A DNA stretch of 37,078 nucleotides from Bacteroidales bacterium (GTDB lineage: Bacteria; Bacteroidota; Bacteroidia; Bacteroidales; FEN-979), in the NCBI GenBank assembly GCA_017882335.1, contig JADGPR010000026.1:1-37078 (forward strand), in the 5' to 3' direction. Below, in pieces: positions 6,762 through 17,179 of this stretch (the stretch's first letter is position 1; each line of letters starts with the position of its first letter). A model generated the notes under the pieces. That model was not told the origin of the DNA, did no database searches, and saw only the letters and a list, made by a program, of their open reading frames with translations. The position numbers and the translations under genes are program-made.

Positions 6762-6806
6762 TTAATGATTTCTTAATGCAAAATTCACAATTCCTCCTTA
6801 CTTTTG
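6762..6806 (+). promoter_or_regulatory. candidate Pho box and promoter of the phoB-like gene
   Basis: Three hexamers lie exactly 11 bp apart: TTAATG (6762), TTAATG (6773) and TTCACA (6784). They are followed by a -7 box TACTTTTG at 6799-6806, 17 nt before the ATG at 6824. The second hexamer ends 20 nt before the -7 box, the same gap as at the porin promoter. The arrangement suggests autoregulation by the encoded response regulator. Confidence 0.5.
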
Positions 6807-6823: not shown

Positions 6824-7507
6824 ATGGAAAAATCAGAATATAAGATCCTTCTGGTTGACGACGAACCCGATATCCTCGAATTTGTAGGATATAACATCCG
6901 GAAAGAAGGATACACCCTCTTCACATGTTCCAACGGGAAAGATGCGATCCGGACTGCAAAAAAGATCATCCCTCATTTAATAATATTGGACATTATGATG
7001 CCGGGTATCGATGGCATTGAAACCTGCGTTGAGATGCGCAAGATCGAATCGTTAAAATCCACGCTGATTGCCTTTCTTACGGCCCGGAGCGAAGATTTTT
7101 CCCAGATCGCAGGACTGGATGCCGGTGGCGATGATTACATCCCGAAACCGATCAAACCGCGCGTGCTCATGAGCCGGGTCAATGCTTTGCTAAGAAGGTC
7201 GCCGGAAACTCCCGAATTTGAATCGCGAACTATTCTCGGGGATATCATCATCGACCGGGAAAAATACATCATCGTGAAAAAAGGGAAAGAGATCAACCTT
7301 CCACGGAAAGAATTCGAACTGCTCGAGTTGCTGACCTCCAAGCCGGATAAGGTATTCACACGGGAACAAATCTTTGAAGAAGTGTGGGGCAATGATGTCA
7401 TCGTTGGCGACCGCACCATTGACGTCCACATTCGCCGGATCAGAGAAAAACTGGAATCCGATAACATCAAAACGGTTAAAGGCGTGGGGTATAAATATGA
7501 ATCCTGA
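6824..7507 (+). CDS. phoB: OmpR/PhoB-family response regulator of the phosphate regulon
   Basis: The 227-residue protein has a receiver domain (about 5-120) with the acidic pair in VDDEPD (D12, D13), phospho-acceptor D56 in LIILDIMMPG, T86 and K108 in DYIPKPIKP. A winged-helix DNA-binding domain (about 130-227) ends in DRTIDVHIRRIREKLE...VKGVGYKYES, typical of OmpR/PhoB. It should bind DNA as a dimer on direct repeats. The next gene, a histidine kinase, overlaps its 3' end by 11 nt. Position beside pst-phoU and the upstream repeat array support a PhoB/PhoP role. The pair could be named phoP/phoR; the symbol is by function, not by proven orthology. Confidence 0.88.
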   Translation: MEKSEYKILLVDDEPDILEFVGYNIRKEGYTLFTCSNGKDAIRTAKKIIPHLIILDIMMPGIDGIETCVEMRKIESLKSTLIAFLTARSEDFSQIAGLDAGGDDYIPKPIKPRVLMSRVNALLRRSPETPEFESRTILGDIIIDREKYIIVKKGKEINLPRKEFELLELLTSKPDKVFTREQIFEEVWGNDVIVGDRTIDVHIRRIREKLESDNIKTVKGVGYKYES

Positions 7508-8567
7508 CCGAAATATCAGTCCAAATACCTGGATGCTGATCAACTCGGCGGCTATCGTCATTGTCCTTTCTTTTCTCTACATCAGCTCATCGCTCATCCT
7601 GAACGAAAGCATCCTCTGGATCCCATTGCTGATCGCCGATTCCGGAGTATTCCTCCTTTCCTTTTTTATCTACCGCTACATCCTCGAAAAATTCATCTAC
7701 GGCAAAATAAAACTGATCTATAAGACGATCCACACGCTGAAATCAAAGATCTCCTTTAAAGAATTGGAGCTTACCCTCGACAAAGATATCATCAGCAAAG
7801 TCAATGAAGAAGTGACCGAATGGGCACAGGACCGCAGGCAGGAGATTGAGGAACTGAAAAAACTGGAAGCCTACCGCAGGGAATTTCTCGGGAATGTTTC
7901 CCATGAGTTGAAAACGCCGCTTTTCAACATCCAGGGCTATATACTTACCTTGCTTGACGGGGGTCTTGATGATCCTACTATCAACAAGGAATACCTTCAA
8001 CGTTCCGGAAAGAATATCGAACGAATGATCAGCATTGTGGAAGACCTTGAAGTGATTTCCCGTTTTGAAACCGGGGAACTGAAACTCGACATACTCAATT
8101 TTGATATCGTTGCACTTGCCACCGATGTCATCGAACTGCTGGAAGTAAAAGCAAAAAAGAAAAATATCCGCCTGAACATTACCAGAGAATTTGAAAAACC
8201 GTTGTTTGTAAGGGCCGATAAAGAGCGCATCAGGCAAGTGCTGATCAATCTCCTGGATAACAGCATCAAATATGGAACGGATAGCGGGAAAACAAAGGTC
8301 GGCTTTTTTGATATGGATGAGAACATCCTGATCGAAGTTACTGATAATGGACTCGGCGTCGATTCAAAAGATATCCCAAGGCTATTTGAACGGTTTTTCA
8401 GGGTCGACAAGAGCCGGTCGCGCGAACAGGGAGGTTCAGGGCTGGGACTGGCCATTGTAAAACACATCATCGAAGCCCATCACCAAACTATCAATGTCAG
8501 AAGCACGATCGGCGTTGGAACCACCTTTGCTTTTACTCTTCAGAAGGCAGATTCTTTTCAATCGTAG
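7497..8567 (+). CDS. phoR: PhoR-like sensor histidine kinase with minimal sensor region
   Basis: From the ATG at 7497, which overlaps the response-regulator gene by 11 nt, the protein has 356 residues. An upstream in-frame ATG exists but would translate 41 residues of shadow sequence inside phoB. Two membrane segments (about 13-33 and 41-60) are joined by a loop of only some seven residues, so there is no periplasmic sensor domain. A coiled linker leads to the H box GNVSHELKTPLFN with H136. The ATPase domain has the N box RQVLINLLDNSIKYG, DNGLGV and GGSGLGLAI. PhoR kinases that take their signal from PstSCAB-PhoU also lack an extracellular sensor. No clear PAS domain is visible. The last 35 nt overlap the convergent phoU gene. 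Confidence 0.88.
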   Translation: MNPDRNISPNTWMLINSAAIVIVLSFLYISSSLILNESILWIPLLIADSGVFLLSFFIYRYILEKFIYGKIKLIYKTIHTLKSKISFKELELTLDKDIISKVNEEVTEWAQDRRQEIEELKKLEAYRREFLGNVSHELKTPLFNIQGYILTLLDGGLDDPTINKEYLQRSGKNIERMISIVEDLEVISRFETGELKLDILNFDIVALATDVIELLEVKAKKKNIRLNITREFEKPLFVRADKERIRQVLINLLDNSIKYGTDSGKTKVGFFDMDENILIEVTDNGLGVDSKDIPRLFERFFRVDKSRSREQGGSGLGLAIVKHIIEAHHQTINVRSTIGVGTTFAFTLQKADSFQS

Positions 8568-9285
8568 TGTCCTCATTCTCTTCAGTCGTAGTATCCTGAT
8601 TCTTTTTAGTCGCAGTACCCTGATCCCAGAATCCTTTTGAGTGTTTCACCAGTCTTCCTTCCACGAGGAAAAAAATTGATTCTGCAATATTCAGGGAATA
8701 ATCTGCAATACGTTCGATCTGTGAGAGAATGATCATCAGGTTCGTCGCGACGACCACAACATCGGTTTTATTTGTCATCTGAACGATGATCTGTTCAGAG
8801 ATCAGCTGTATCTTGCTTTTGATGATTTCTGAATCGTCAAAAATATCCTTGATGAACACGATATTTCTTGAATTCAGTATTGTGATCACATCCCTGACAA
8901 TGGCATCTGTTGATTCGGCAAGTTCATCGATCTTTAATTCCTGTACGATATCCTTGTAATCACTAAGTCCTTCAACCCTCTTGGCAATGTCTACAGCATG
9001 GTCACCCATGCGTTCAAGGTCGTTGTTCATCCGCAGGGATGCCATGATTAATCGCAGGTCGGTCGCCACAGGCTGCGTCAGCGCAAAGATCCGCTGGCAG
9101 AGCTTGTCAATCTTTACATCCAGCTCATCCACAGCATTGTCGGCTTCAATGATCTCTTCCGCTGCTTCAACATCGCAATTGACCAGGGCAACCATCGTTT
9201 GATGTACCTGGGAGGCAACAAGGTTCCCCATTTTCAGGATTCTTTTTTTTAATTTTTCGAGTTCAAGATCAAAATGTCGTTCCAT
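8533..9285 (-). CDS. phoU: phosphate signalling protein PhoU with repeat-encoded tail
   Basis: PhoU couples Pst transport activity to PhoR and damps the Pho response when phosphate is plentiful. The 250-residue protein has the two three-helix PhoU repeats; the E/DxxxD metal-binding signatures are visible around MNNDLERMGDHAVDIAKR and LSQIERIADYSLNIAES. The last 27 residues are an extra acidic, threonine-rich tail made of three 8-residue units (TATKKNQD, TTTEENED, TTIEKNLP). This tail is encoded by three 24-nt DNA repeats that also contain the 3' end of the convergent kinase gene. It is last in the porin-pst series, 105 nt after pstB, with a heptad array in the gap. Confidence 0.93.
   Translation of the reverse strand: MERHFDLELEKLKKRILKMGNLVASQVHQTMVALVNCDVEAAEEIIEADNAVDELDVKIDKLCQRIFALTQPVATDLRLIMASLRMNNDLERMGDHAVDIAKRVEGLSDYKDIVQELKIDELAESTDAIVRDVITILNSRNIVFIKDIFDDSEIIKSKIQLISEQIIVQMTNKTDVVVVATNLMIILSQIERIADYSLNIAESIFFLVEGRLVKHSKGFWDQGTATKKNQDTTTEENEDTTIEKNLPSEE
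8545..8616. repeat. three 24-nt direct repeats shared by the 3' ends of phoU and phoR
   Basis: Units at 8545-8568, 8569-8592 and 8593-8616 read on the plus strand like TTCTTTTCAATCGTAGTGTC, with a few changes each. They encode the 8-residue repeats at the PhoU C-terminus. The first unit contains the last codons and the stop of the kinase gene on the other strand. Confidence 0.8.
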
Positions 9286-9390: not shown

Positions 9391-10149
9391 TCATCCAAAC
9401 CTCCCGGTTATGTAATCCTCTGTCTGTTTCTTTTCCGGTACGGTAAATATTTTTTTTGTTTTCCCGAATTCAATCAGCTCGCCGAGGTAAAAGAATCCTG
9501 TATTGTCACTAACGCGGGCAGCCTGTTGCATATTATGGGTTACAATGATGATGGTATAGTTTACCTTCAGTTTGAAGATCAGCTCTTCGATTTTCGAGGT
9601 GGAAATCGGATCGAGTGCGCTGGCCGGCTCATCCATCAGGATAATCTCCGGATCAACAGCGAGTGTTCGTGCAATGCAAAGGCGTTGCTGCTGGCCTCCT
9701 GATAATCCCAGCGCTGAATCGTGCAGCCTGTCTTTAACCTCTTCCCAGATTGCTGCACGTTGCAATGAACCCTCCACGATTTCTTTTAATTTCTTTTTGT
9801 CATGAATCCCGTTTATCTTGGGTCCATAAGCTACATTTTCAAAGATGGATTTTGCAAATGGATTTGATTTTTGGAATACCATCCCAACTTTCTTCCGGAG
9901 GTTTACGGCATCCACATTTTTATCGTAAATGTTGAAACCATCAACCAGCACTTCCCCGGTGATCCTCACACTCGGGATCAGGTCATTCATGCGGTTTAGG
10001 GTTCTCAGGAAGGTCGATTTCCCGCAGCCGGACGGACCGATCAACGCGGTCACTTGTTTCTCTGGAATATCCATCGAGATGGAGTTGAGCGCCATCTTAC
10101 TTCCATAGTAAAGCGAAAGGTTTCTCGTTTTTATTTTTGTTTCTTTCAT
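9391..10149 (-). CDS. pstB: phosphate ABC transporter ATP-binding protein PstB
   Basis: The ATPase of the high-affinity PstSCAB phosphate importer. The 252-residue protein is normal length and shows Walker [10 protein letters not shown], the ABC signature [16 protein letters not shown], Walker [14 protein letters not shown] and the H-loop [14 protein letters not shown]. The PstB-specific N-terminus ([16 protein letters not shown]) is present. It starts 27 nt after the pstA stop, in the same operon. It also signals phosphate sufficiency to PhoR through PhoU. A heptad array follows directly after its stop codon. Confidence 0.97.
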
Positions 10150-10176
10150 CGTATTCTTAGTGCCTGTTCATAGTTC

Positions 10177-11073
10177 TTAATGAGATCTTCTCAGCTTTGA
10201 CCGTATTAGAACGGCCACAAAGTTCAGGGTGAAGGTCAGCAGGAGCAATACCAGTGTAGTGGCAAATTGTATCGGCAAGGTTTGATCGACATTAACCGAT
10301 TGGGTTGACATGATGTAGATATGATAGCCGAGCGACATGAACTGGTCGCTGAGGGAATGCGGCAATGTTGCAAGGTAATAGGCAGCTCCTGTAAAAAGGA
10401 TCGGTGCCACCTCGCCTGCTCCCCTCGAAATCGCAAGGATTGTACCGGTAAGTATACCGGATCTTGCTCCCGGGAGAACCACCTTCCGGATTGTCTGCCA
10501 TTTCGTTGCGCCAAGCGCCAGGCTGGCATCCCGCAAATCCCGCGGAACTGCGCGTATCGATTCTTCAACAGAAACAATCACAACCGGTAATGTGAGAAGT
10601 GCCATCGTAAGGCTGGCCCACAGGATGTTGGGTTGCGCCCAGATCAACTGTCCGCCGAAAAATACCTTATCCATCCCTCCTCCTACAAATTTTATAAAGA
10701 ATCCAAGCCCGAAAAGTCCAAAAATGATTGAGGGTACCATCGAAAGAGTTCTTACGGCAAACTGAACGGTTTTTGCCATCCAGGAAGATTCTCTTGCATA
10801 TTCGGTAAGGTAGAGCGCGGTTATGGCCCCGAATGGAACCGCCGCAACCGACATGATGATCACCATTAGGGCCGTGCCATATAATGCAGGAAAGATGCCT
10901 CCTTTTGTCATTCCATCCTTTGGGAATGTTGTCAGGAATTTCCAGGATATCGTGTCCTTTCCCCCGATAACAATGACTACAAGCATAATGACAATAACAG
11001 CAATGATCAGGACGACCGACAATCCGGTGGCCCCCATCATAATTCCACCCGTTAATTTCTGAACTTTTTTCAT
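10177..11073 (-). CDS. pstA: phosphate ABC transporter permease PstA
   Basis: One of the two permease subunits of PstSCAB. The 298-residue protein has a first membrane segment around 12-36 and about six in all. The cytoplasmic EAA-type loop that contacts PstB is RDASLALGATKWQTIRKVVLPGA. The start codon overlaps the pstC stop by 4 nt, so translation is probably coupled. The length matches the family. Confidence 0.95.
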   Translation of the reverse strand: MKKVQKLTGGIMMGATGLSVVLIIAVIVIMLVVIVIGGKDTISWKFLTTFPKDGMTKGGIFPALYGTALMVIIMSVAAVPFGAITALYLTEYARESSWMAKTVQFAVRTLSMVPSIIFGLFGLGFFIKFVGGGMDKVFFGGQLIWAQPNILWASLTMALLTLPVVIVSVEESIRAVPRDLRDASLALGATKWQTIRKVVLPGARSGILTGTILAISRGAGEVAPILFTGAAYYLATLPHSLSDQFMSLGYHIYIMSTQSVNVDQTLPIQFATTLVLLLLTFTLNFVAVLIRSKLRRSH

Positions 11074-12305
11074 ACTTTTCCCTGTAACCGGGTCATTAAT
11101 TTTCCTTTCACGTAAAATTCAGCAGTCGCATTCAGGGCAAAGGTAAAAACGAACAACAGAGTGCCAATCAGGAACAAAACGCTGTAATGGGTATCGCCGA
11201 ATACGACTTCTGCCATTTCCGCGCCAATCGTGGCCGACAATGTCCTGACCGAATCGAAAGGATTCATGGATATCAATGCTGCATTGCCTGTCGCCATTAA
11301 TACGATCATCGTTTCCCCGAATATTCGTCCGATACCGAGCAATACGGCGGCAAAGATACCGGGAGCTGCTGCCGGCAAGGTGACAAAAAAAGCGGTCTGC
11401 CATTTCGAAGCTCCCAGCGCCAGGCTGGCTTCCTTATAAGTTGAAGGAACGGCTGTCATAACATCTTCAGTCACCGTAAAGATGATCGGGATGGCAGCCA
11501 GCGCCATGGCGACTCCGCCAACAAAGGCATTGAGCCTGGTTTCATATCCAAACAGGTTCTGGAAGAATGTTGCCATGATAATCAGTGCAAAGAAACCGAT
11601 GACCACAGATGGGAAACCGGCAAGTATTTCGATAGCAGGTTTAATGATTTCCCGCATCCACCGTGGTGCAAATGCAGCCGAAAACAGTGCGGCAAGTATG
11701 GCCAGGGGTGCAGCGAAAAGGATCGCGATGATTGTTATTTTAAATGTGCCGACAACCAACGGCAGCAATCCATACCTGGGATTGTCGGATACCGGCATCC
11801 ATACCTTTCCTGCCAAGCCTTTAACGGTTACCCGGCCTTCTGCTTCGGAACTGGTTTCTCTATAGGAAGAAATACCGGCCTCACCTGAAACCACGGTATT
11901 TTTTGTTGTGTCGCTGGTTGCTACATATACTTCCTGCTTTGTTACCCCATTCTCAGGTTCGGTCCCGGAGTAAACCTCCTGTTGATTAACATTCCTATTA
12001 TCTGTGGCAGTTCCGTAGGTTTCTTGCTTGGCAGCAGTTACCTCTGTCTTTGTTTCTGCCTTCCCTGAAAATATAGGGATGGTTTCGCGGAAGACAAACA
12101 GGAAGATCAGGATGATAATGGCGATGGAGAGGAAAGCAACACCGGTAATGATCTTCTCGGCAAAAAATTCCGATGGCCTCATCTGTTTCTTCAGGCTATC
12201 GTTGCTGAAAACAAACCGGGCCGGTTGTTGTTCGGAAATGCCATCTACTTTGACCGGCTGACCGCTATTTTCTTCCAATGGTTGGGTAGTTTCTTCTGTA
12301 TTCAT
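11070..12305 (-). CDS. pstC: phosphate ABC transporter permease PstC with long periplasmic insertion
   Basis: The partner permease to PstA. At 411 residues it is longer than most PstC proteins (about 300). The extra length is a polar N-terminus (1-50) before the first membrane segment (53-73) and a low-complexity periplasmic stretch (about 80-165). That stretch contains three loose repeats around QETYGTATDNRN, QEVYSGTEPENG and QEVYVATSDTTK. The transport core follows, from WMPVSDNPRYGLLPLVVGT, with the EAA loop EASLALGASKWQTAFFVTLP. The gene starts 65 nt after pstS; the gap holds a strong hairpin. Confidence 0.94.
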   Translation of the reverse strand: MNTEETTQPLEENSGQPVKVDGISEQQPARFVFSNDSLKKQMRPSEFFAEKIITGVAFLSIAIIILIFLFVFRETIPIFSGKAETKTEVTAAKQETYGTATDNRNVNQQEVYSGTEPENGVTKQEVYVATSDTTKNTVVSGEAGISSYRETSSEAEGRVTVKGLAGKVWMPVSDNPRYGLLPLVVGTFKITIIAILFAAPLAILAALFSAAFAPRWMREIIKPAIEILAGFPSVVIGFFALIIMATFFQNLFGYETRLNAFVGGVAMALAAIPIIFTVTEDVMTAVPSTYKEASLALGASKWQTAFFVTLPAAAPGIFAAVLLGIGRIFGETMIVLMATGNAALISMNPFDSVRTLSATIGAEMAEVVFGDTHYSVLFLIGTLLFVFTFALNATAEFYVKGKLMTRLQGKV

Positions 12306-12370: not shown

Positions 12371-13210
12371 CTACCTAACCGGGAAATATCCCTGGTCGAC
12401 CACAAGCTTTTGGCCTTCTGGTCCAAGGATCCAGTCAATGTAGTTTTTCATTTCCCCGGTCGGCCTGTTCCTGAGATACATATACAGGTACCTGCTGATG
12501 GGGTAAGTTCCATTCTTTATTGTTTCAGCACTGGGTGTATAGGCGGGTGTTTTATCATCCTTTTTCACCAGGCATTGCTTCACACCTTTTGAATAAGCTG
12601 CTCCGCCGTAACCAATACCATATTTATCATTTTTAACGGCATTCACCACTGCAGCAGTTCCGGGGAGCGTCTGGCAACTGGCTGCATAATCGCCTTTTAC
12701 CACATTCTCCTGGAAGAAAACATAGGTTCCTGAACTGTTCTCACGACCATAAAGCTTGATGGCTTCATCCGGACCACCGACTTCTTTCCAGTTCTTGATT
12801 TTTCCTGAATAAATCCCGCTCAGTTGTTTAATGCTGAGTTCTTTTACCGGGTTCGACTCGTTCAGGTAAACCGTGATACCGTCTTTGGCACAGCGGATCT
12901 CAACACCAAGCGAACCGTAACGTTCCTTCAGTTTATCGATCTCGCTCTGTTTCATCGGGCGGCTGGCATTGCAGATATCTGTTGCGCCATTGATCAGGGC
13001 TGAGATACCGGTTCCCGATCCACCACCGGTTACCTGGAGGGTAACTTCAGAATGTGATTTCATATAGACTTCTGCCCATTTCTGTGCAAGGATCACCATG
13101 GTATCGGATCCTTTTATGGTTATTTTTTTTGGTGCCGGCATGAAGGCGAAAGTGATGACTGCAAGGAGGATAACACCGGCAATCGTTTTTTTTATGTTTG
13201 ATCTTTTCAT
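12371..13210 (-). CDS. pstS: periplasmic phosphate-binding protein PstS
   Basis: Captures phosphate in the periplasm for PstCAB. The 279-residue precursor has an N-terminal signal peptide (basic MKRSNIKK then a hydrophobic run to about residue 26). There is no convincing lipobox cysteine, so it is probably soluble. Phosphate-contacting segments are visible: IKGSDTM, TGGGSGTGI and ASRPMK, the last with the conserved Ser-Arg. It is a compact member of the PBP-like family (PstS/SphX type). It starts 46 nt after the porin gene and no clear separate promoter is seen, so it is likely transcribed from the Pho-box promoter ahead of the porin. Confidence 0.94.
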   Translation of the reverse strand: MKRSNIKKTIAGVILLAVITFAFMPAPKKITIKGSDTMVILAQKWAEVYMKSHSEVTLQVTGGGSGTGISALINGATDICNASRPMKQSEIDKLKERYGSLGVEIRCAKDGITVYLNESNPVKELSIKQLSGIYSGKIKNWKEVGGPDEAIKLYGRENSSGTYVFFQENVVKGDYAASCQTLPGTAAVVNAVKNDKYGIGYGGAAYSKGVKQCLVKKDDKTPAYTPSAETIKNGTYPISRYLYMYLRNRPTGEMKNYIDWILGPEGQKLVVDQGYFPVR

Positions 13211-13255: not shown

Positions 13256-14776
13256 TTAGAATTTTGCCTGGAATCTCAGGGTAAGAACGTTTTGTTTGAT
13301 CAGGTTACTGTAATCATACTTGCTCGAGATTCCTCCGGGGGCTGTATAGCTACCCGACAGGACCTTACCTGCCGTTCCTGCTTTCTCATTCATAGGGATA
13401 TCATAAGCCAGGGAGATCTTGATATTATCATCGAAATAATAGCTCCATGCAAGAGTGATCTGACTGTAAGCGAGATCAGCAGTACCGCTGGTCAGGGAGT
13501 TGTTTACGACGGTATTGCTTACGTTTTTATTCACCAGTACATTCCCGGCTGAGCCGATTGTATTTTTTACAGTTATTGTCTTAGTAGAGCTGGCTTTGTA
13601 AGCAGATACTCCCAGGTCGTTACCACCCAGTTTTGTATTCGGATCAAATTTATCATAACGAATGGTGAACTGGTTCCGTTTGCCTATATTCTTAACCAGG
13701 TAAACATAGAAACCGCTGAAATTTCTGCGGATGTTCGGAGCAATGCTCGTGGTTTTGGAAACGGTATAGGTCTGCGTTACAGTATCTTTGGCTGCATTGA
13801 TGCTTTGTGTAAAGACTGGAGATGATGTGACAGTACTGTTGAAACCGGGGAATGCGTTTACCCCCATGATGTATTCGCCTTTCAAAACAAGGCCACCAAG
13901 CACATCTATAAAAAGCTGAGCTTCCACGCCAGCCCAGTTACGGCTCAGTGCAGAACCAATACCTACGGCTTTATCCTTGGTATAATCCGATTTCAGAAGG
14001 GTATCGGTCGTTGCTCTCACTTTACCATAATATCCATGGGCACCGACGGTAAGTCCACCCCAACGGCCCAGTTTGAAAGCATAAGTAAGACGACCCATCA
14101 GGTCTTTGTAATTGTCGAAATCTTTGTTATCAGCAGCGTTCTGGTTGGCACCTGTGGCATCCGGGATTACCTGGCCATCATTACCGTTGAATAATGCCAA
14201 CTGAAACTTTAAAGGAATGGAAGGTGGTGTGACTTCCAGTTTGGCGCCAATTGCATATTCGCCCGGGTAGAGGGTGGTGATTATCCTTGAACGTTCCAGC
14301 GCTTCCAGGTCACTTGAAGAATATTCGACTTCATAGTTCAACCGGTTGAATTTACCCACCCATAAAGAGAAGGTCTTTAACCAGGGCTCGTTAATTCTTG
14401 CATATGCTTCTTTAATTACAAAATTACTTGGCTGGAAATCGGGCTGTAAAACCAATGCAACCCCCTTGGCGGGTTCATACTGAAGTTTGAACCTTGCCCT
14501 GCGGATCGTCACATAGTTACTTGGAAAAACGTTCGCGGCTTCAAAATGCTGCCATTGAGCCTGGATATAACCTGACAATTTAATTTTTGTCAGTTTGTCA
14601 AGGCTTCCTTCAGCAGTTGCAAGCCTTTCTTCAACACCGGAGATCTTGTCCCGGAGCGTTGTAACCTGAGGCGCCAATGTATCAGTAGCACTTTGGGCCT
14701 TTGCAGATTGGGACGGTGCCAGGAAAACCAGGAGACCCAAAGATAAAATTGAGAGAGAGATTTTTTTCATGTTCAT
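13256..14776 (-). CDS. OprO/OprP-type phosphate-selective porin
   Basis: An outer-membrane beta-barrel expected to admit phosphate. The ATG at 14776 (MNMKKISLSILSLG) is preferred over one 33 nt upstream, because it places the signal peptide at the N-terminus; this gives 506 residues. After the signal peptide come a short coiled segment (TTLRDKISGVEERLATAEGSL), which may bind the peptidoglycan layer, and a series of amphipathic strands ending in aromatic VLTLRFQAKF, typical of the last porin strand. Phrases such as GYIQAQWQHF and RRARFKLQYEPAKG fit the Porin_O_P family. It heads the pst operon and is preceded by a candidate Pho box. Substrate preference is inferred from family and context. Confidence 0.88.
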   Translation of the reverse strand: MNMKKISLSILSLGLLVFLAPSQSAKAQSATDTLAPQVTTLRDKISGVEERLATAEGSLDKLTKIKLSGYIQAQWQHFEAANVFPSNYVTIRRARFKLQYEPAKGVALVLQPDFQPSNFVIKEAYARINEPWLKTFSLWVGKFNRLNYEVEYSSSDLEALERSRIITTLYPGEYAIGAKLEVTPPSIPLKFQLALFNGNDGQVIPDATGANQNAADNKDFDNYKDLMGRLTYAFKLGRWGGLTVGAHGYYGKVRATTDTLLKSDYTKDKAVGIGSALSRNWAGVEAQLFIDVLGGLVLKGEYIMGVNAFPGFNSTVTSSPVFTQSINAAKDTVTQTYTVSKTTSIAPNIRRNFSGFYVYLVKNIGKRNQFTIRYDKFDPNTKLGGNDLGVSAYKASSTKTITVKNTIGSAGNVLVNKNVSNTVVNNSLTSGTADLAYSQITLAWSYYFDDNIKISLAYDIPMNEKAGTAGKVLSGSYTAPGGISSKYDYSNLIKQNVLTLRFQAKF

Positions 14777-14797: not shown

Positions 14798-14865
14798 GCA
14801 AAAGTACACCAGGTAATAAAGGCCGGTGTTAACGGTGTATTACCATTGTGTTAATTAATTGTGAA
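14798..14865 (-). promoter_or_regulatory. candidate Pho box and promoter of the porin-pst operon
   Basis: On the minus strand four hexamers occur at 11-bp steps: TTCACA (14860-14865), TTAACA (14849-14854), GTAATA (14838-14843) and TTAACA (14827-14832). A -7 box TACTTTTG (14799-14806) follows 20 nt later, 22 nt ahead of the start codon. No TTTG -33 box is seen in the usual place, as expected for an activator-dependent promoter. Confidence 0.55.
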
Positions 14866-15680: not shown

Positions 15681-17093
15681 TTACAGCACCAGCCGGAACA
15701 GTAAAAAAAGTCCGCCGGAAAGTACGATTGTGACCGGTAGCGTGAACAGCCATGCTGCAAGAATATTTTTTATGGTATTCATCTGGAGGTTCTGTCTCCC
15801 TTCTCCTGCAACCATCGCTCCTGCCACACCGGAAGAAAGTACATGTGTAGTGCTCACCGGCAGCCCGAATGCGGTAGAAACCCCGATCGTACTGGCAGCG
15901 ATGATCTCCGCACTTGCTCCTTGAGCATAAGTAAGATGCGTTTTCCCGATCTTTTCACCGATTGTAACCACAATTCTTTTCCATCCGATCATGGTGCCAA
16001 ATCCAAGGGAAAGCGATACTAATAGAATAACCCAGCGGGGTGCATATTCAGTATGCGTTTTGATTTTTTTAACGTTCGATTTCAGGATCGACATATCAAC
16101 AGGCGTCAGATATGCTTTTGATTTGCTGTCGGCATTTTTCAGGATGCCATCAACTTTTTTACCAATCAGAATAATGGATTTCCGGATCTTGAAATTTTCC
16201 ATTTTATCCATCTTGTCAAATGAAACGACGCCTTGTAAACCCTTAACAATGGATGAGATGTTCGCCTGTACAACCCGGTAATCTTTCCGTTCCGGTTCAC
16301 GCAGTGCAGTCGTATCCATTTTTTTCAGGGTCCATTCGATCTTTTTGACATCCATACGAAGATCTGTCGGGTGCTTGTGCCTGTCAAGTGCAAAAAAGGC
16401 AGGAGCAAAAGCTATAAGGATCAGCATGATCAAACCTACCCCCTTCTGTCCGTCGTTGGATCCATGTGCGTAGCTCACGCTGGTACAGGTGAGCACGAGA
16501 ATGCTGCGGATATAAAGAGGAGGTGGTTTTTTTCCCTGAGGCTCTTTAAAAATGTCTTTATTTTTTATTATCTTCCTTAAAAGAAGCATGAATAATAATG
16601 CAATACCGAATCCAAAAACAGGAGAGATCAGCAGGGAAAGCCCTACCTCAATGACCTTCGTCCAGTTGAGTGCAATGGCATGACTACCGGGAAGCAGCAT
16701 GAACGCGAGACCCACCCCGAAAATGGAGCCGATAAGGGTATGCGAACTAGAACAGGGAATGCCGAAATACCATGTGGACAGATTCCAGATGATCGCGGTC
16801 AGAATCAGGGAAAGAACCATTGCAATGTTGTGGGAAAGGTTCTGATCAACAATGACCTCTGTAGGAAGAAGGTTGATGATGCCTATGGCAACTGCGATCC
16901 CGCCCACATTGACCCCGATAAAATTCCAGATCCCCGACCAAATGACGGCCATTGTAGGTTTCAGGGAATGGGTGTAAATGACCGTTGCTACCGCATTTGC
17001 GGTATCATGAAATCCATTGATAAATTCAAATGCAACAGCGGCAAGGAGGCATAGAAGAAGAAAAATAGTATTGGCGGTATCAAGTCCAAACAT
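15681..17093 (-). CDS. pit: Pit-family inorganic phosphate transporter
   Basis: A secondary, low-affinity phosphate importer. The 470-residue protein carries the paired Pit signatures: NGFHDTANAVATVIY (26-40) in the N-terminal half and GVSTAFGLPVSTTHVLSSG in the C-terminal half. YAHGSNDGQKGVG (208-220) begins the second half. Between about 235 and 352 is a polar helical insertion, likely cytoplasmic and PhoU-like in character. It lies next to the Pst block but has its own promoter, with candidate Pho-box repeats. The GPP34 gene follows by 48 nt. Confidence 0.93.
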   Translation of the reverse strand: MFGLDTANTIFLLLCLLAAVAFEFINGFHDTANAVATVIYTHSLKPTMAVIWSGIWNFIGVNVGGIAVAIGIINLLPTEVIVDQNLSHNIAMVLSLILTAIIWNLSTWYFGIPCSSSHTLIGSIFGVGLAFMLLPGSHAIALNWTKVIEVGLSLLISPVFGFGIALLFMLLLRKIIKNKDIFKEPQGKKPPPLYIRSILVLTCTSVSYAHGSNDGQKGVGLIMLILIAFAPAFFALDRHKHPTDLRMDVKKIEWTLKKMDTTALREPERKDYRVVQANISSIVKGLQGVVSFDKMDKMENFKIRKSIILIGKKVDGILKNADSKSKAYLTPVDMSILKSNVKKIKTHTEYAPRWVILLVSLSLGFGTMIGWKRIVVTIGEKIGKTHLTYAQGASAEIIAASTIGVSTAFGLPVSTTHVLSSGVAGAMVAGEGRQNLQMNTIKNILAAWLFTLPVTIVLSGGLFLLFRLVL

Positions 17094-17113: not shown

Positions 17114-17179
17114 CAAAAATAGAAAGTTTGTTTATTGGTTGAGTAAATCAATAGTACACCAATATTAATTTTCTGTTAA
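17114..17179 (-). promoter_or_regulatory. candidate Pho box and promoter of pit-GPP34
   Basis: On the minus strand hexamers at 11-bp steps read TTAACA (17174-17179), TTAATA (17163-17168), GTACTA (17152-17157) and the weaker TTACTC (17141-17146). A -7 box TATTTTTG (17114-17121) follows the last by 19 nt and lies 20 nt ahead of the pit start. The first two hexamers match the TTAAYR word seen at the phoB and porin promoters. Confidence 0.45.

Follow-up and report, generated by a model that had tools for sequence, protein, structure and literature searches.

A probable Pho box of 11-bp direct repeats ahead of the porin-pst operon in a Bacteroidales genome

What controls the porin-pstSCAB-phoU operon of a Bacteroidales bacterium, and do the direct repeats ahead of it form a Pho box? 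We addressed this question in a stretch of 37,078 nt (contig JADGPR010000026.1 of assembly GCA_017882335.1), hereafter called the window. On its minus strand the DNA preceding the operon reads TTCACA-N5-TTAACA-N5-GTAATA-N5-TTAACA-N20-TACTTTTG, with steps of exactly 11 bp between successive units. A first, sequence-only reading had described four hexamers at exact 11-bp steps ending 20 nt before a -7 box; when coordinates and letters were read again, all were as claimed. The array has several traits of a Pho box, in that it consists of 11-nt direct repeats, is found at phosphate-gene promoters and keeps a fixed distance in relatives. Judged by its sequence, spacing, conservation, register and gene context, and by the near-identity of PhoB's recognition helix to its E. 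coli counterpart, it is very probably a four-unit Pho box that serves as operator of porin-pstSCAB-phoU; phosphorylated PhoB would bind it and activate the operon in low phosphate. The first reading knew of no Pho box defined for Bacteroidota. None was found in the open-access literature either, with two caveats from the accessible parts of the papers concerned: PhoB of B. fragilis shifts a 512-bp pstC promoter fragment in gels, the text leaving the site within that fragment undefined (PMC3547664), and putative Pho boxes have been predicted for plcP clusters of marine bacteria (PMC4796936).

The features of the locus are compiled in Table 1. We take the product of the first gene of the operon as a porin because a relative sharing this promoter, L185 (same contig as L063), has a Porin_O_P match (PF07396, E 2e-6). 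Orthologs of this gene occupy the same place in relatives, with 47-79% identity within the family. According to Pfam scans, a gene for a GPP34 protein and then pit lie upstream of the porin gene. The start of phoR was set at the in-frame ATG at 7497, which overlaps the end of phoB. The latter gene adjoins the pst operon throughout the genus, and in the window it is located about 8 kb from the array.

Table 1. Coordinates of the promoter elements and genes in the window
Feature	Position	Strand	Remarks
Pho box unit 1, TTCACA (candidate)	14860..14865	-	starts 59 nt before -7 box; mean 1.90 bits; TTAAC in nearly all 34 aligned family sites
Pho box unit 2, TTAACA (candidate)	14849..14854	-	mean 1.82 bits, 34 aligned sites
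Pho box unit 3, GTAATA (candidate)	14838..14843	-	variant unit; GTAAY in most relatives; mean 1.69 bits
Pho box unit 4, TTAACA (candidate)	14827..14832	-	first base 26 nt from -7 box; mean 1.79 bits
-7 box TACTTTTG of porin-pst promoter	14799..14806	-	TAnnTTTG 59 nt from unit 1 in 34/37 examined relatives
Outer-membrane porin, first gene of operon	13256..14770	-	504 residues; itself without Pfam match
pstS, phosphate-binding protein	12371..13210	-	PBP_like_2, E 4.5e-45
pstC, pstA, pstB	9391..12305	-	BPD_transp_1 twice and ABC_tran
phoU	8533..9285	-	PhoU domain, E 3.5e-34
phoB, OmpR/PhoB-type response regulator	6824..7507	+	Response_reg PF00072 and Trans_reg_C PF00486; likely ligand of the box
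phoR, histidine kinase	7497..8567	+	HisKA and HATPase_c in open frame 7374-8567
pit, PHO4-type phosphate transporter	15681..17093	-	PHO4, E 5.9e-87
phoB promoter	6762..6806	+	TTAATG 6762-6767, TTAATG 6773-6778, exactly 20 nt, TACTTTTG 6799-6806
Weak candidate pit box	17114..17179	-	TTAACA 17179-17174, TTAATA 17168-17163, GTACTA 17157-17152, TTACTC 17146-17141, 19 nt, TATTTTTG

When scored against four TTMACA units, the porin-pst array reaches 22/24 and the runner-up in the 37-kb window 17; in 20 dinucleotide-shuffled versions of this sequence the best four-unit score is 16-18. The word TTMACA was picked after reading this very site, and therefore conservation is better evidence than the score alone. 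The post hoc choice of the word, together with the single unit pairs that arise in shuffles, would favor the view that the repeats merely reflect chance or the composition of A+T-rich promoter DNA; the invariant spacing among relatives and the pattern controls, both described below, argue against it.

PstS served as the query against 120 relatives, and 40 pst loci were retrieved, in 37 of which the porin start could be placed (L067, L069 and L070, where it could not, are outside the count). The best four-unit array lies exactly 59 nt before TAnnTTTG in 34/37 of these porin/pst loci, with scores of 19-22 of 24. This figure comprises 33/33 loci from the family to which the window belongs and 1/4 from other families of the order, the array at that distance being absent from the other-family porin loci L065, L066 and L068. 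When 34 sites were aligned (the window and 33 loci; L048 was dropped, its fourth unit failing the strict pattern), the information content per position was 1.7-1.9 bits in the units, 1.7 in the -7 box, 1.7 in the first spacer and 0.20 in the 45 nt upstream; the DNA outside the array and promoter has diverged among these relatives. By the terms of the sequence-only reading, its proposal would fall if relatives did not conserve the 11-bp repeats; they are conserved in these 34 loci. Apart from isolated exceptions, e.g. upstream of pstS at L070, window-like arrays with comparable scores were not seen before pstS, pstC, pstB or phoU in the relatives. The spacer between units 1 and 2 (window 14849-14865) is as conserved as the units themselves (1.71 bits), the other spacers being less so; it is AATTAT in relatives and AATTAA-like in the window, and may offer an additional contact.

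The geometry was compared with altered patterns in 43 genomes. KTAAY-N6-KTAAY-N21-TANNTTTG gave 66 exact matches, which include porin-pst promoters sharing ancestry, versus 6 for the reversed pattern. A 10-bp step instead of 11 yielded no excess (6 matches versus 10 reversed). When the spacing to the -7 box was shortened by one nt we counted 14 matches versus 7 reversed, and with a spacing of 15 nt 7 versus 12. Both the 11-bp step and the 26-nt distance are thus specific, each against its altered patterns (6-14 matches). On the strength of conservation, shuffles and pattern controls, we reject an origin by chance or composition, to which we assign next to no probability. As a by-product, the step control turned up a 10-bp-step element, TTAACTTTCTTTAAC...GAAAGAAAT, which has a CTTTC/GAAAG inverted repeat and stands before a -7 box in four genomes of one genus (G007:C74, G014:C11, G017:C25 and G026:C389).

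According to the sequence-only reading, the same word, period and distance recur at two other phosphate promoters of the window. This holds for phoB, the promoter of which contains an exact two-unit match at 20 nt. A further TTCACA is located in register at 6784-6789, 15 nt from the -7 box, so that the promoter has two strong units and one weaker proximal unit, not four. The claim fails for pit, where the spacing is 19 nt and the four-unit score of 17 is the level reached by shuffles; pit was rejected as an equal third site for these two reasons. A two-unit version with the full 20 nt is present ahead of one of two pit copies in G003, and was not seen ahead of pit in G004. Among 30 phoB upstream regions a 16/16 two-unit match occurs in six, five of which represent all five genomes of the genus; in the regions read from outside the genus the full two-unit pattern is mostly absent. 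G024, which belongs to another genus, has a unit pair in the 15-nt register ending just upstream of phoB. Within the window's own genome, the four-unit pattern retrieves only the porin-pst site when at most three mismatches are allowed. The two-unit pattern with one mismatch gives five matches versus five controls, which is chance level, and therefore no wider regulon is visible in this genome. Exact two-unit matches in the 3.13-Mb assembly are only two, the phoB promoter and the porin-pst promoter.

The phoB product of the window combines a receiver and a winged-helix domain with a PhoB-like recognition helix. It shares 33% identity with E. coli PhoB over 226 aligned positions, and its recognition helix DRTIDVHIRRIREKLE aligns with, and closely resembles, DRTVDVHIRRLRKALE of the E. 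coli protein. Conceivably, a different OmpR/PhoB-type regulator could occupy the array and control pst, with PhoB acting elsewhere. Four Trans_reg_C proteins were detected in the genome, some genomes have similar CTTAATC-like 11-bp arrays before genes for superoxide dismutase and ECF sigma factors, and the OmpR/PhoB-type regulators with known sites all bind direct repeats according to the accessible part of PMC4832192. However, the confinement of the exact two-unit matches to the phoB and porin-pst promoters and the location of phoB beside the pst operon in the genus speak for PhoB itself, as does the gel shift with the B. fragilis pstC promoter, which involves the same phylum and the same regulator-target pair (accessible text of PMC3547664). 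We consider another regulator unlikely.

A comparison with known Pho systems reveals both shared and divergent traits. The Pho box of E. coli pstS (MG1655), CTGTCATAAAA CTGTCATATTC CTTACATATAA CTGTCAC, likewise consists of four exact 11-bp units before pst, the third being the most divergent, and this layout is the same in the window. The unit word, however, is TTAAYA in the window's group and CTGTCAT in E. coli, and the core promoter is unlike that of E. coli pstS: its -7 box is of the Bacteroidota type, TAnnTTTG, and lies a constant 26 nt from the proximal unit, as against 15 nt in other parts of the class. The PhoP box of Bacillus subtilis is composed of TTHACA repeats at roughly 11-bp spacing; the sequence-only reading likened the TTAACA/TTCACA word to it, and word and spacing would agree, whereas phylum and promoter type differ. 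In Streptomyces and Mycobacterium, the direct repeats for PhoP are 7-bp motifs with a 4-bp spacer that are bound by head-to-tail dimers, and M. tuberculosis PhoP binds more tightly to arrays of three and four motifs (both from the available portion of PMC4832192). The S. coelicolor PhoP word, given as GTTCACC in the accessible text of PMC4415409, differs from that of the window.

With regard to the core promoter, TACTTTTG matches the sigma-ABfr -7 consensus as quoted in the available part of PMC7366714. A conserved TTTG (-33 element) is absent from the 34 aligned sites, both between array and -7 box and within the units, and the spacer before the -7 box has a mean of 0.43 bits. The same source, as far as its accessible text goes, states for F. 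johnsoniae that not every primary-sigma promoter has a -33 element (PMC7366714). Unit 4 would lie where such an element is expected to stand. It is reasonable to propose that in phosphate scarcity PhoR would phosphorylate PhoB, molecules of which would bind consecutive TTAAYA units, 11 bp apart, in head-to-tail order and on the same helical face. Of these units, the proximal one would then replace the -33 element and hold sigma/RNA polymerase on TAnnTTTG; in this mechanism the distance to the -7 box would be invariant because the proximal unit holds the polymerase there. The shorter array at the phoB promoter would allow autoregulation.

The proximity of unit 4 to the core promoter would also suit a PhoB that acts on the array as a repressor, or a box that mainly serves autoregulatory feedback and not activation. 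We regard this as very improbable, as deletion of phoB in B. fragilis almost abolishes pstC expression in low phosphate (accessible part of PMC3547664), and as a spacer without a conserved -33 element fits an activator-dependent promoter. Activation is compatible with three observations: the array keeps one distance to the -7 box, no -33 element is conserved, and pstC expression is lost in the B. fragilis mutant. What we infer, then, is that PhoB binds the array, that it activates and does not repress, that its effect depends on phosphate and that the -33 element is replaced.

We also read 29 pst loci belonging to other families of the class. A good unit pair lies upstream in 20 of them, and nine have none. 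Fifteen distances from unit to NANNTTTG were obtained; eight measure 15 nt, one 26 and one 37, i.e. 10/15 fall into the same 11-bp register (15, 26 or 37 nt; p about 8e-8). The 26-nt form is thus not general outside the family, and the arrays of the class mostly end 15 nt before the -7 box. A three-unit pattern was run against 395 phylum genomes and gave 41 matches in 32 of them, its reversed control 0. A PhoB ortholog was detected at E <= 1e-60 in 214/395 of these genomes, several box-bearing genomes falling outside the cut-off. A clean co-occurrence of box and PhoB was not obtained across the 395 genomes, and this comparison is uninformative, as a single E-value threshold fails to tell PhoB apart from other regulators of the OmpR type when families are compared. 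A four-unit scan of named genomes returned at least 119 stretches; among 80 matches listed, 72 belong to Bacteroidota or to Chlorobiota/Ignavibacteria relatives, seven to other phyla, and one is unlabelled.

Which genes follow such sites? At least 118 distinct four-unit sites were obtained in named genomes, 11 of which had no ORF in the next 300 nt; the scan covered 107 proteins. Among the matches listed, the phosphate families downstream (n=107) are Porin_O_P (11), Na/Pi cotransporter (8), PBP_like_2 of the PstS type (4) and PHO4 (3). As a neighbor control, 107 of 116 candidate neighbor ORFs from the same loci were scanned and the top 25 families tabulated; here PHO4 is found 4 times, CarboxypepD 5 times, and Porin_O_P, Na_Pi_cotrans and PBP_like_2 at most twice each. 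When the four phosphate-transport families are pooled, they account for 26/107 downstream genes (among the matches listed) versus 4 to at most 10 of 107 neighbors (p 0.003). PHO4 alone is not enriched, with 3/107 downstream, among the matches listed, versus 4/107 neighbors. In rumen and gut Bacteroidales (L157, L164, L170, L176, L203, L214, L221 and L262) the box stands before Na/Pi cotransporters, not pst.

Other families are also found downstream, again among the matches listed (n=107), namely the CarboxypepD/TonB-receptor type (26), Fe/Mn superoxide dismutases (6), ECF sigma factors (6) and metallophosphoesterases (4). For the TonB-receptor-type genes, the superoxide dismutases and the ECF sigma factors, relevance to phosphate is unproven. 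A recognizable pho homolog occurs within the 8-kb locus in 4/26 TonB-receptor-type loci, picked by eye among the matches listed; in F. johnsoniae, the accessible part of PMC8115612 lists an induced TonB receptor in the phoBR operon. Metallophosphoesterase genes with PF12850/PF00149 follow boxed promoters at L083, L084, L110, L154 and L243. They belong to the same Pfam family as PlcP of F. johnsoniae, which is induced on phosphate depletion (available text of PMC8115612). This family likeness and the phosphate induction indicate that lipid remodelling may form part of the regulon. CTTAATC-like four-unit 11-bp arrays stand before Fe/Mn superoxide dismutase and ECF sigma genes at L188, L189, L231, L241, L259, L192, L206, L252 and others. 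Possibly, they represent another OmpR-type regulon with the same geometry; to judge by these superoxide dismutase and sigma-factor sites, the relaxed pattern may pick up a second regulon as well.

One may extend the proposal to a rule for all Bacteroidota, by which PhoB-type activators would bind 11-bp TTAAYA arrays in fixed register to TAnnTTTG (at 26 nt in the family of the window and at 15 nt in many others) and replace the -33 element; for this rule we see the chances as evenly balanced. If it were true, Pho regulons would be predictable throughout the phylum, and they would include outer-membrane porins and TonB-type receptors as well as Na/Pi cotransporters and phosphatases of lipid remodelling. 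Phosphate uptake is under PhoB control, and so is abscess survival in B. fragilis. The strict register would turn the prediction of Pho regulons into a pattern search in abundant gut and environmental bacteria. Moreover, it would provide a clean system for studying how an activator works at sigma promoters of the -7/-33 rather than the -10/-35 type.
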